Shown here: positions 13,861-17,468 of the stretch, in pieces
How positions within the stretch are numbered: the stretch's first letter is position 1
How the letters are laid out: each line of letters opens with the position of its first letter
Assembly: GCA_031277215.1 (NCBI GenBank)
Contig: JAITMR010000019.1
Span: 1-64,000, forward strand
From: Burkholderiales bacterium
GTDB taxonomy: Bacteria > Pseudomonadota > Gammaproteobacteria > Burkholderiales > Casimicrobiaceae
Direction: 5' to 3'
DNA length: 64,000 nt
The notes under the pieces: model-generated
Seen by the model: only the letters and a program-made list of their open reading frames with translations
Told to the model about the DNA's origin: nothing
The model's database searches: none
Translations under genes and position numbers: made by a program

Positions 13861-13946
13861 GAGAAGGCGCATTGCCTGCGTGACTTGGTGTCATTCTGCG
13901 CGAAGCGAAGTCGCAGAATCTATAAAAGCATCTCACAAATATATCT

Positions 13947-14039
13947 CACGCGAAGCCGCGGTGTGTGAATTCACGACTCCGTTGAAAAAGGTACGATGCA
14001 TCGTCATTCCCGCGTGCATTTGGCGGGAATCCAGCGTCG
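13947..14039 (+). repeat. R3 interspersed repeat, copy 1 (full)
   Basis: The unit runs from CACGCGAAGCCGCGGTGTG through GAATTCACGACT and GATGCATCGTCATTCCCGC to GCGGGAATCCAGCGTCG. The right third is an ATTCCCGC...GCGGGAAT palindrome. Other copies lie at 14049, 14656 (partial), 14764, 14858 (partial) and 40201 (partial). Confidence 0.85.
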
Positions 14040-14048
14040 TTTATTATT

Positions 14049-14175
14049 CACGCGAAAGCGTGGTGTTCGAATTCACGACTACCATTGTAAAAGGCACGAA
14101 GCATCGTCATTCCCGCGTGCTTCCCCGCCCAAAATCGCTGCGGGGACAAGCCTGGCGGGAATCCAGTGTCTTTTT
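14049..14175 (+). repeat. R3 interspersed repeat, copy 2, interrupted by an R2-like piece
   Basis: It has the same order as copy 1, but between CATTCCCGCGTGCTT and GGCGGGAATCCAG about 30 bases with CCCCGCCCAAAATCG and CGGGGACAAGC, the R2 hairpin core, have been inserted. Its right end is the left inverted repeat of the GIY-YIG unit. Confidence 0.8.
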
Positions 14176-14588
14176 GCCGAGTTTCGGTATGATCTACCCA
14201 GTCAACCCAGCCACACACACCACCAACTTTCGGATATGTCGACAAGAGACGAAAAACAACCTGCTGTTTACATCATTTTAAGCAAACGCAACGGCACGTT
14301 ATACATCGGAGTAACCAGTAATCTTGTGCAACGCGTATGGCAGCACCGTAATGACGCGGTTGAAGGGTTCAGTAAAAAGTACCAGACGCACATCTTGGCG
14401 TATTATGAACTTCACGACAACATGGAATCAGCGATTCTGCGGGAAAAACAACTCAAAAAATGGGAGCGGCAATGGAAAATTCGGCTAATCGAAAAATCAA
14501 ATCCGTATTGGCGTGACTTGTATTCCGAAATAGTTGGCTAATAAGGGAAAAAAGACACTGGATTCCCGCCAAAAACACGCGGGAATGA
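14105..14588 (+). mobile_element. Putative GIY-YIG unit bounded by inverted repeats
   Basis: The 22 bases at 14154-14175 (from GGCGGGAATCCAG to GTCTTTTT) recur as an exact inverted copy at 14549-14570. The homology continues outward, with CGTCATTCCCGCGTG on both ends (14105-14119 and inverted at 14574-14588). The only gene inside is a small GIY-YIG nuclease ending eight bases before the right repeat. Mobility is inferred; no target-site duplication was established. Confidence 0.5.
14236..14541 (+). CDS. Small GIY-YIG nuclease family protein
   Basis: The 101-residue protein consists of a single GIY-YIG domain: VYIILSKRNGTLYIGVTSNL (residues about 11-30, containing the two motif halves YII and YIG), the catalytic-type Arg in VQRVWQHRND, Glu in NMESAILREKQLKKW, and WKIRLIEKSNP. 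This is the small stand-alone type related to YhbQ/UPF0213. Substrate and role are unknown; the fold cleaves DNA in characterised relatives. The ATG at 14236 starts the recognisable domain although an open frame continues upstream through the repeat. Perfect inverted repeats flank it, so nuclease-assisted spread of the repeats is a possible role. Confidence 0.85.
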   Translation: MSTRDEKQPAVYIILSKRNGTLYIGVTSNLVQRVWQHRNDAVEGFSKKYQTHILAYYELHDNMESAILREKQLKKWERQWKIRLIEKSNPYWRDLYSEIVG

Positions 14589-14593
14589 CGGAG

Positions 14594-15156
14594 TACCTTC
14601 TCCCCAGTTCTCTCACACACCAATCGCAGGGGCACGGCATGCTGTGCCCCTACTTTACGCGAAGGCGCGGTGTATGAATTCACGACTACCATTGTAAAAG
14701 GCACCGTCAAGCTCCCCTCGCCCGCTTGCGGGAGAGGGGTGGGGGAGAGGGTGGTTCAAATTGGTGCGGTGTATGGATTCACGACTTCCGTAGAAAATGG
14801 CACGATGCATCGTCATTCCCGCATGCTTCTGGCGGGAATCCAGTGTCGTTTATTATTCACGCGAAGCCGCGGTGTGCGAATTCACGACTCCATTGAAAAA
14901 GGCACGGAGAAAGCTCATTTGTCCGCGCATCCGAAGCCCCCTTTTCAAAGGGGTGGACGCCGAAGGCGGACGGGGGTTTGTCTCTCCCGTCCAATCGCAC
15001 AGCGATTTTGGGCGGGGAGGCACGCGCAGAATGACGGAGTACCTTCTCCCCAGTTCTCTCTCACACCCACACTGATTTCTGATAACCACCCTCTCCCCCA
15101 GCCTTTCTCCCGCAAGCGGGCGAGGGGAGCTTGACTTACCAATGCACGAAAAATGA
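14594..15156. other. Gene-free repeat cluster
   Basis: No credible gene was found here. The stretch holds a partial R3 copy (14656-14705), an R1 palindrome (14714-14739), a nearly full R3 copy (14764-14849), another partial R3 copy (14858-14907), R2-like hairpins (about 14930-15020) and an R1 palindrome (15105-15127). Short open frames across it change family at each repeat border and encode no recognisable domain. Confidence 0.8.
14764..14849 (+). repeat. R3 interspersed repeat, copy 4
   Basis: It runs from GTGCGGTGTATGGATTCACG to GGCGGGAATCCAGTGTCG, closely matching copy 1, including GATGCATCGTCATTCCCGC. A fifth, partial copy starts nine bases later at 14858. Confidence 0.85.
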
Positions 15157-16389
15157 TCAATTCAACCGTTTGAAAATAAGCGACGTGTTGATGCCGCCGA
15201 ACGCAAAGTTATTGCTCATGGTGTATTCGCAATCAAGAACGTGCCCATCGCCTTGAATGTAGTCGAGCGGCATGCAGCGAGGGTCGACTTGATCCAGATT
15301 CAGCGTCGGTGCAAACCAGCCGGTTCGCATCATTTCGATCGTCATCCACGCCTCGATAGCGCCGGCAGCGCCCAGAGTGTGTCCGATATAACTCTTCAGT
15401 GATGAAAAGGGCATATTCTCGCCGAAAACAGTATGGGTAGCGATGCTTTCCGCAATGTCGCCCAGTTCGGTGGCGGTACCGTGCCCGTTGACGTAGCTGA
15501 TCGCACTGGGCGGAAGACCCGCATCGTCCAGCGCCAGCCGGATGGCAGTGGTCATGGTCTCAGCCTGCGGCTGAGTGACGTGGGCGCCATCGCAGTTGGT
15601 GGCAAAGCCAACGATTTCGGCAATTATCCGGGCGCCACGAGCGCGGGCATGTTCAAGCTCTTCGAGAATGAGCGTGCCGGCACCTTCACCGATCACCAAT
15701 CCGTCGCGGTCGCGGTCGTAAGGGCGTGGCGTCGTAGCGGGGGCATCGTTTCGGGTGCTGGTGGCAAACAGAGCGTCGAAAACCCCCGCTTCCGACGCAC
15801 ACAGTTCATCAGATCCCCCCGCGATCATTACGTCGGCGTAATGGTGACGGATGGCTTCGTACGCGTAGCCGATACCCTGGCTGCCGGAAGTACAGGCGCT
15901 CGATGTGGTGATGACCCGGCCGGTCAGTCCGAAAAAGACAGCAATATTGACCGGTGCGGTGTGCGACATCACCCGCAGGTAACTGTTGGCGGTAAGACTA
16001 TTGAGCGAGCGCCCTTCGATGAGCTGCGCGAAATCGGTGAGTGCGCCGGGTTCACCGAGCGAGGAGCCGTAGGATACGCCGGTGCGTCCCGATTTCAGCA
16101 CTGGATGGTTGAGCAAACCAGCATCGGCAAGCGCCCATTCGCTGGCCAGGCATGCTATCAGGGCAACGCGCCCCATGCTGCGGGTGCGCTTACGGGAATA
16201 GTGCTCCGGCAGTTCGAACGAAGCGGCGGGTGCGCCGAGACGGGTGTTGAGTCCGGCGATGTCGGCCCATTCGTCCATATAGCGGACAGCGTTCTGCCGG
16301 GCGCGCAAGGCACGTTCGACATCCGTCCAGTGGTGACCGATCGGGCTGATACCGGCCATGCCGGTGACGACAACACGGCGATGGCTCAC
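15157..16389 (-). CDS. Beta-ketoacyl-ACP synthase, ApeR/FabF-like
   Basis: This 410-residue condensing enzyme extends acyl-ACP with malonyl-ACP. The active-site Cys lies in TSSACTSGSQGIGYAYEAI (about residues 160-180), with His residues in NGHGTATELGD and IGHTLGAAGAIE, completing the Cys-His-His triad. The start VVVTGMAGISPIG is typical of the FabF/FabY branch found in aryl polyene clusters. It overlaps the upstream ketoreductase by four bases, and a dehydratase stump lies beyond that gene, giving the order apeP-apeQ-apeR. A role in aryl polyene pigment synthesis is inferred from this order; the rest of the cluster is absent. Confidence 0.85.
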   Translation of the reverse strand: MSHRRVVVTGMAGISPIGHHWTDVERALRARQNAVRYMDEWADIAGLNTRLGAPAASFELPEHYSRKRTRSMGRVALIACLASEWALADAGLLNHPVLKSGRTGVSYGSSLGEPGALTDFAQLIEGRSLNSLTANSYLRVMSHTAPVNIAVFFGLTGRVITTSSACTSGSQGIGYAYEAIRHHYADVMIAGGSDELCASEAGVFDALFATSTRNDAPATTPRPYDRDRDGLVIGEGAGTLILEELEHARARGARIIAEIVGFATNCDGAHVTQPQAETMTTAIRLALDDAGLPPSAISYVNGHGTATELGDIAESIATHTVFGENMPFSSLKSYIGHTLGAAGAIEAWMTIEMMRTGWFAPTLNLDQVDPRCMPLDYIQGDGHVLDCEYTMSNNFAFGGINTSLIFKRLN

Positions 16390-17123
16390 AGCATGCCTCC
16401 ATCGACAGCAATGACCTGCCGCGTGATGTAGGCGGCGTCATCGCGCATCAAAAAGGCGACGGCCGCTGCAACCTCCTCAGGTTGACCGGCTCGCCGCACA
16501 GGAATGGCGGGTAGGGCGTGTTCGAACACTTCCGGCGACATCATGTCGGTCTCGATCAGGCCGGGCGCTACGCAATTGACAGTGATTTTCCGTTTTGCCA
16601 GTTCCAGCGCCAGCGCTTTGGTGGCGCCGATGATGCCGGCTTTGGCAGCGCTGTAATTGACCTGTCCGCGGTTGCCGGAGATGCCCGAAACCGATGACAG
16701 CGTGACGATGCGGCCGGGACGGCGTGTCTGCACCATCGGCATGATCAGCGGATGAAGGACGTTATAAAAGCCGTCGAGATTGGTCTCGAGTACCCGATCC
16801 CAGTCGGTGGCGGGCATGGCCGGAAAGGCGTTGTCGGCGGATACGCCGGCGTTGCATACCACACCATAGTAAACGCCGTGGGCCGCAATATCGGCTTCCA
16901 GCGCGTGTCGTGTCGCTTCGCGGTCGGCGATGTCGAACATCAGTAACCGGGCTTGCCGTCCCTGCTGGGTGACGGCATCCATGACGGTTTCAGCTTGGGT
17001 GCGCTGGTTGCGGCAGTGGACGGCGATATCGAACCCGTCTTGTGCCAGGCGTAGAGCAATGGCGCGACCAATGCCCCGGCTGGCGCCGGTGACAAGCACA
17101 GTTCGGGAAGAAGATGAAGTCAT
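16386..17123 (-). CDS. 3-oxoacyl-ACP reductase, ApeQ/FabG-like
   Basis: The 245-residue short-chain dehydrogenase reduces 3-ketoacyl-ACP with NADPH. It shows the nucleotide-binding GASRGIGRAIALRLA (residues 13-27), the NAG motif (CNAGVSADN), the catalytic Ser (TLSSVSGISGN) and the YxxxK pair in NYSAAKAGIIG. It is translationally coupled to the ketosynthase gene downstream. Upstream lies a MITE-like element and then the stub of a hotdog-fold dehydratase, so this is probably the reductase of a former aryl polyene module; a general FabG role cannot be excluded. Confidence 0.88.
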   Translation of the reverse strand: MTSSSSRTVLVTGASRGIGRAIALRLAQDGFDIAVHCRNQRTQAETVMDAVTQQGRQARLLMFDIADREATRHALEADIAAHGVYYGVVCNAGVSADNAFPAMPATDWDRVLETNLDGFYNVLHPLIMPMVQTRRPGRIVTLSSVSGISGNRGQVNYSAAKAGIIGATKALALELAKRKITVNCVAPGLIETDMMSPEVFEHALPAIPVRRAGQPEEVAAAVAFLMRDDAAYITRQVIAVDGGML

Positions 17124-17153: not shown

Positions 17154-17272
17154 TATAGTGAATCACATCAATTTTTAGACGAGGCGGCCAGACAAAGCCA
17201 TGATGGCAGACAGCGCAAGTAGTGCGGCAAGGCAAAGTCAATAAAGTATAAAAAGTTGTGCGGTTCACTATA
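17154..17272. mobile_element. Correia-like miniature inverted-repeat element
   Basis: The 119-base element begins TATAGTGAA and ends TTCACTATA. The terminal inverted repeats extend for about 27 bases with 21 matches, including an internal TTTTTA block. The interior (GAGGCGGCC, GGCAGACAGCGCAAGTAGTG, CGGCAAGGC) resembles the Correia repeat enclosed elements of Neisseria, which have the same TATAGTG termini, length class and TA insertion preference. It lies between the apeQ-like gene and the apeP-like stump and supplies the stub's stop codon. It carries no gene. Confidence 0.75.
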
Positions 17273-17468
17273 ACGCCGAAGTGTTTTCGCGGACGGAAGC
17301 CGTGCGTTGCAGATAGGCCTCCAAATTGTTAGGCTGGAACACCAACAACGAGGCTTCGGCGAGCAAGGCGCCGTCAAGATGGCGGATCGTGCAGGACATG
17401 GCGATCAAGCCATCGTCAGCCATGAGGTCTTCATCTGACTCGCTGAGGCTCGCTGTGTTCACCACCAA
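17268..17468 (-). pseudogene. ApeP-like 3-hydroxyacyl-ACP dehydratase, C-terminal stump
   Basis: About 66 codons are open after an in-frame TAA. The recognisable part, GLIAMSCTIRHLDGALLAEA followed by SLLVFQPNNLEAYL, is the last strands of a hotdog-fold dehydratase of the ApeP type. The N-terminal two-thirds, including the catalytic region, are missing: argC begins nearby in the other direction. The TAG stop is formed by the terminus of the adjacent MITE-like element, so the C terminus may also be altered. With apeQ and apeR downstream it marks a decayed aryl polyene module. Confidence 0.6.

Follow-up and report, generated by a model that had tools for sequence, protein, structure and literature searches.

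What is the short repeat at positions 17154–17272 of this stretch, and does it represent a relative of the Correia elements outside Neisseria? The window, by which we mean the whole 64-kb stretch of DNA analysed here, contains at this place, on the forward strand, a 119-bp element, counted with the duplicated TA at either end, which is a lengthened and degenerate version of a MITE whose main form has 107 bp. Its length, coordinates, TATAGTG/CACTATA termini and interior words are all as a sequence-only reading had given them. The left terminal inverted repeat (17154–17180, forward strand) is IS630-like and agrees with the right one (17246–17272, reverse strand) at 21 of 27 positions, which bears out the 27-bp imperfect repeats of that reading; outside these two termini, the window has no exact copy of the end sequence TATAGTGAA. 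The TTTTTA block that had been placed in the interior is present, but it belongs to the terminal repeat, as its inward-facing portion, and is not a separate feature of the interior. A structured core (P1, J1, P2, J2, P3) extends from 17174 to 17253 on the forward strand, where covariance model R1 gives 43.5 bits, the covariation having been measured on relatives. This core includes the two 6-base insertions that mark the longer variant (17190–17195 and 17200–17205, forward strand) and an inner hairpin (17206–17230, forward strand) made of the GCAGACA loop strand (17206–17212), the P3 stem GCGC/GTGC, and the GGCAA loop strand (17226–17230).

The element is a non-autonomous MITE of a family whose members measure 107–119 bp. 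As is characteristic of IS630 MITEs, it is shorter than 200 bp, lacks coding capacity, has terminal inverted repeats and is flanked by a TA target duplication. We searched the host genome (1.9 Mb in 73 contigs) for further copies with both ends, as the sequence-only reading had proposed, and found 13 distinct related copies using the 107-bp form as a query (E ≤ 0.001), a 14th listed match being one end read backwards and hence left out. The end pattern occurs at 41 sites in the host genome compared to 6 for the reversed control. The predominant length there is 107 bp, against 119 bp for the window copy. Furthermore, the genus comprises 11 species, and BLAST matches to the element were detected in 6 of them, counting that of the host. 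In five congeners, the joined flanks of the window locus align across the junction and reveal an empty site, CATTG-TA-GCGCCGAAG or a close variant, whereas the occupied site in the host reads CATTG-TATAGTG...CACTATA-ACGCCGAAG. Because the same site is empty and carries a single TA in these five congeners, the element was inserted at a TA, which was duplicated to give the copies at 17154–17155 and 17271–17272. The element is thus mobile, inserting at TA with target duplication, and its relatives are dispersed in the genome and the genus.

The insertion lies 31 bp upstream of a FabG-like reductase gene (16386–17123, reverse strand), measured from the start codon; if this gene is transcribed from upstream, its leader would contain the element. 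We found neither an outward sigma-70-like promoter nor a terminator at the 17154–17272 copy. On the other side, a gene remnant (17268–17435, reverse strand) matches congeners in its C-terminal part and takes its stop codon, TAG, from the element end. The 166 bp adjoining the element (window 17270–17435) have a 94% identical second copy at G000:C24:55348-55513. The presence of this copy elsewhere, together with the remnant state of the gene here, suggests that the gene cluster next to the element was duplicated or rearranged. Farther away, window positions 13946–15067 hold several dispersed direct-repeat families of 23–103 nt, one of them with CATTCCCGCGTGCTTCTGGCGGGAATCC.

The proposed likeness to Correia elements proved to be far above chance. 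Aligned to a real Neisseria gonorrhoeae Correia element, a 107-bp sibling of the window copy scored 79, compared to a maximum of 31 in 2000 shuffles, and shared a 53-bp core at 92% identity; the window copy itself scored 36 against a shuffle maximum of 30. Correia elements (CREE, NEMIS) also have the TATAGTG/CACTATA ends, the TA target, a main form of about 107 bp and the same predicted fold, and they too come without a transposase of their own. In contrast, the 26-bp Correia repeat (TATAGTGGATTAACAAAAATCAGGAC or AAATTTAAA type) is not present here: agreement is limited to its first 7–9 bases. The 107-bp siblings fall inside the Correia length classes (104–108 and 153–157 bp), and the window copy measures 119 bp.

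The N. gonorrhoeae copies that could be named were supplied by two chromosomes filed as plasmids, one of which holds them at 80 places, with the published Correia ends. NZ_CP119140.1, NZ_CP119142.1, and NZ_CP077849.1 (2.2 and 3.7 Mb) are entries of the plasmid collection that, judged by size, look like whole chromosomes, which is a trap for plasmid statistics. The host of the window copy belongs to the GTDB order Burkholderiales, but not to the Neisseria family: it is labelled f1, whereas the copies that have Correia ends and are surrounded by Neisseria uptake sequences come from family f225. Between the host and N. gonorrhoeae, ArgC identity is only 53.6%. The idea of a relative outside Neisseria therefore stands. 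Correia elements have been published as confined to Neisseria (PMC2649163), and the copies found here contradict that description as far as the shared core goes. Another member of the family, G018, was recognised as the Burkholderiales MAG JANXNI01 from the sequence identity of loci L032 and L161.

Which enzyme could have moved the element? A transposase sharing the terminal repeats, which the sequence-only reading suggested looking for, was not found in the host: its genome has no DDE_3 match, so that the MITE looks orphaned here, like Correia in Neisseria. A candidate was found at the contig ends of the congener G037 (loci L084–L092), where at least 11 contigs stop some 100 bp into an insertion sequence that is repeated in this genome and has the ends TATAGTGGATCGCTTATACAAATAGAC and TATAGTTAACCGCACAAATAATTAGACG. 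Translation of these ends gives matches to HTH_Tnp_IS630 (E = 3e-4) and DDE_3 (E = 8e-4), which mark the insertion sequence as a member of the IS630 family present in high copy number (at least 11 copies); it is known from contig ends alone, its interior being missing from the assembly and its transposase not readable whole. The MITE consensus end agrees with TATAGTTAACCGCACAAATAATTAGACG at 24 of 28 bases, where chance would give about 1e-4 matches per genome. We infer that the MITE was moved in trans by an IS630 transposase of the G037 type, or by a relative now lost from the host. A REP/RAYT element was also considered and rejected: contigs C18 and C31 have TATAGTGAAT matches at their ends, but these seem to fall within the reading frame of a Y1 transposase and are due to chance.

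The core is arranged in the order P1, internal loop NAGGC/AACNNN, P2, internal loop GCAGACA/GGCAA, P3 hairpin. One fold accounts for the 107-bp form and for the copies from Neisseria, Cupriavidus, Eleftheria, and Streptococcus suis, with a conserved G-C pair in the outer internal loop of all except the Neisseria copy. The window copy adopts a similar fold, to which its insertions add a local hairpin. A profile of the core was built as a covariance model, and the window copy, which was absent from the training set, matches it at E ~6e-12. Covariation was assessed on 66 diverse sequences aligned without structure. Paired cells made up 92.6%, compared to 72.4% in shuffles and 24–43% with the partner slid, and 279 cells were changed on both sides compared to 88 in shuffles; the shuffles keep relatedness, the structure was drawn from the same sequences and some copies were model-found. 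An artefact is unlikely in view of how far the slid controls lie from the observed value and of the free arms in copies found by pattern. The core is kept as a hairpin with two internal loops via compensatory change. The outer loop occurs with two sequence pairs, AGGC/AAC or CGAA/GAC, whose sides switch together (columns 11–15 and 59–64 of alignment A2), which suggests that it is a non-canonical paired motif.

How far does this core extend? By the sequence-only reading, a relative here would take the Correia family into another lineage or point to a common ancestor. It was right that the family leaves Neisseria, but the core proved to be much wider than that, and the termini are of another kind than the Correia repeat. 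The search that found the Neisseria copies also matched Cupriavidus metallidurans, Eleftheria terrae, and a S. suis plasmid. A pattern scan of species genomes yielded at least 118 stretches, in Accumulibacter, Acidovorax, Polaromonas, Rhodoferax, Herbaspirillum, Chitinibacter, Avibacterium, Cardiobacterium, Streptococcus mitis, and others; because the pattern was built to omit most Neisseria copies, the scan says nothing about relative abundance. The core covariance model matched 102 of 399 sampled Burkholderiales genomes (54 of 158 genera), 8 of 369 genomes of the class and 21 of 398 genomes of the phylum, where all except one weak match fall within the class. Phage records gave no match, and Rfam gave no overlapping match up to E = 5 and E = 3.

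The streptococcal copies connect the core to BOX elements. With R1, which was built without them, the copies of S. mitis and Streptococcus sp. SPS1 scored 57–61 bits; they adopt the same or nearly the same fold, and an S. mitis copy retrieves a Diaphorobacter copy by blastn (E = 2e-4). Locus L167 contains TACGGCAAGGCGACGCTGAC, which is most of the BOX-PCR primer BOXA1R, and the primer lies in the core. Streptococcus BOX elements (boxA–boxC) thus have the same core and fold but differ in their terminal repeats, which are of the TATACTC type, the host element having TATAGTGAAYCGCAT; in pneumococcus, boxB modules separate A from C, and the hosts of BOX belong to another phylum. Judged by these comparisons, Correia and BOX appear to be branches of a wider family that has the structured core in common and takes in repeats of many other bacteria. 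BOX and Correia are handled as separate families in the literature examined, and we found no paper joining them in the open-licence literature, although an earlier report elsewhere is possible. By description, RUP of Streptococcus pneumoniae is similar in being small, with IS630-like ends and a TA target, and presumably moved in trans; we do not claim the core for RUP. Another betaproteobacterial repeat, the roughly 90-bp BRE of Bordetella, has one copy that, according to the description in PMC3110155, is transcribed as an 80-nt RNA. As described there (Hot et al., 2011), BRE overlaps in its taxa (Acidovorax, Polaromonas, and Rhodoferax) with the core family, which makes a link of BRE and its 80-nt RNA to this family plausible on taxonomic grounds.

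The ends of these repeats vary in kind. Three end families outside the genus duplicate TNA (6/6, 13/13, and 2/2, counted per end family), unlike the host genus, where TA is duplicated. We used family-wise counts, as the automatic target-duplication search over all copies was weak due to ill-defined arm ends. TNA duplication is the expectation for IS5-type transposases. Given the different duplications and the different ends, the same core module is probably carried by different transposases. No autonomous insertion sequence with TACGG-type ends and a size near 1 kb was seen among the listed matches, in which end pairs lie about 88 bp and in a few cases about 260 bp apart.

The explanation that best covers these observations, and that we hold to be probable, is that the MITEs are mobilised in trans by different DDE transposases while carrying one structured module that is probably selected as RNA. 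Independent MITE families might instead have converged on a similar hairpin, the Correia resemblance then being chance or convergence. Terminal repeats and target duplications that vary among families would fit such an origin, but 53 bp at 92% identity with Neisseria, unpaired loop sequences that are identical across phyla, the scores of the held-out streptococcal copies and the match from S. mitis to Diaphorobacter make it scarcely credible. Somewhat less remote, yet still improbable, is a core that is an inert hitchhiker. Gene conversion or template switching of inverted repeats can restore pairing in perfect palindromes and could in this way have kept the stems; neither process would hold the unpaired GCAGACA/GGCAA loops constant or make the two sides of the outer loop change together, and neither predicts an excess of G-U pairs.

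Such an excess was observed. Read on the GCAGACA strand, the arms of pattern-found copies contain 162 G-U pairs compared to 56 A-C mismatches, and 18 compared to 3 after grouping related ends. Among polarised changes, A>G outnumbered T>C (48 vs 25). Cytosine deamination as a source of the bias is argued against by the lack of a C>T excess among these changes (34 C>T, 36 G>A). The strand-specific excess also bears on the strongest competitor, in which the structure matters as DNA only and the palindromic core aids transposition, as a cruciform or by binding transposase, with no RNA role. The element is transposon-like, the Neisseria copies alone show no bias (G-U to A-C, 5:4), and no orientation bias relative to genes was seen with crude ORF calls in GC-rich DNA, all of which suits a role in DNA. 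Outside Neisseria, however, the G-U excess is specific to one strand, and elements that differ in ends and target duplication, and so probably in transposase, have kept the same loops. We therefore regard a role in DNA only as unlikely, and selection on the RNA of the GCAGACA...GGCAA strand as likely from these substitution patterns.

By the mechanism that we consider most likely, an IS630-family transposase, of the G037 type or a lost relative, would move the MITE in trans, and the element, when transcribed within a neighbouring mRNA, would fold into a long hairpin. RNase III could process this hairpin, as it processes Correia RNA (PMC2649163). The conserved loops may serve for binding or processing and thereby make insertions tolerable or useful; the module would then persist while transposase-specific ends turn over. 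A bolder proposal is that Correia, BOX, and the unnamed repeats share an RNA motif (loops NAGGC/AACNNN and GCAGACA/GGCAA) with real biochemical activity, whether it binds a protein, directs processing by RNase III or is even catalytic, and that this motif passes between MITEs of unrelated transposases and between phyla; we put it forward tentatively, as slightly easier to doubt than to accept. The motif combines strong covariation with the lack of an Rfam match and can be probed in tractable organisms. Correia elements have so far been without a known transposase and BOX has been treated as streptococcal; if both belong to one wide family, IS630-type transposases can be tested as the candidate enzymes that move Correia. 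The reach of BOX-PCR across bacteria has been credited to conserved boxA (Koeuth 1995, as cited in PMC7291552), and with one family it would rest, in some taxa, on a definite sequence.

Five of the eight class-level genomes scored just 27–35 bits with the core model. Two of these five, G384 and G168, have the outer stem in common with the family but a different inner part: loci L104, L109, L112, L115, L118, and L121 of G384 and L105 of G168 combine the same outer stem and an outer loop NAGGC/AACAAC with the inner part GGAGTGTATG...CATGA. Possibly these elements are a sister family of structured MITEs. Inspection of L115 ruled out an integron attC site, since the GTT and AAC boxes are in the opposite order. 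In G384, three such elements are arranged in tandem, one per 121 bp.
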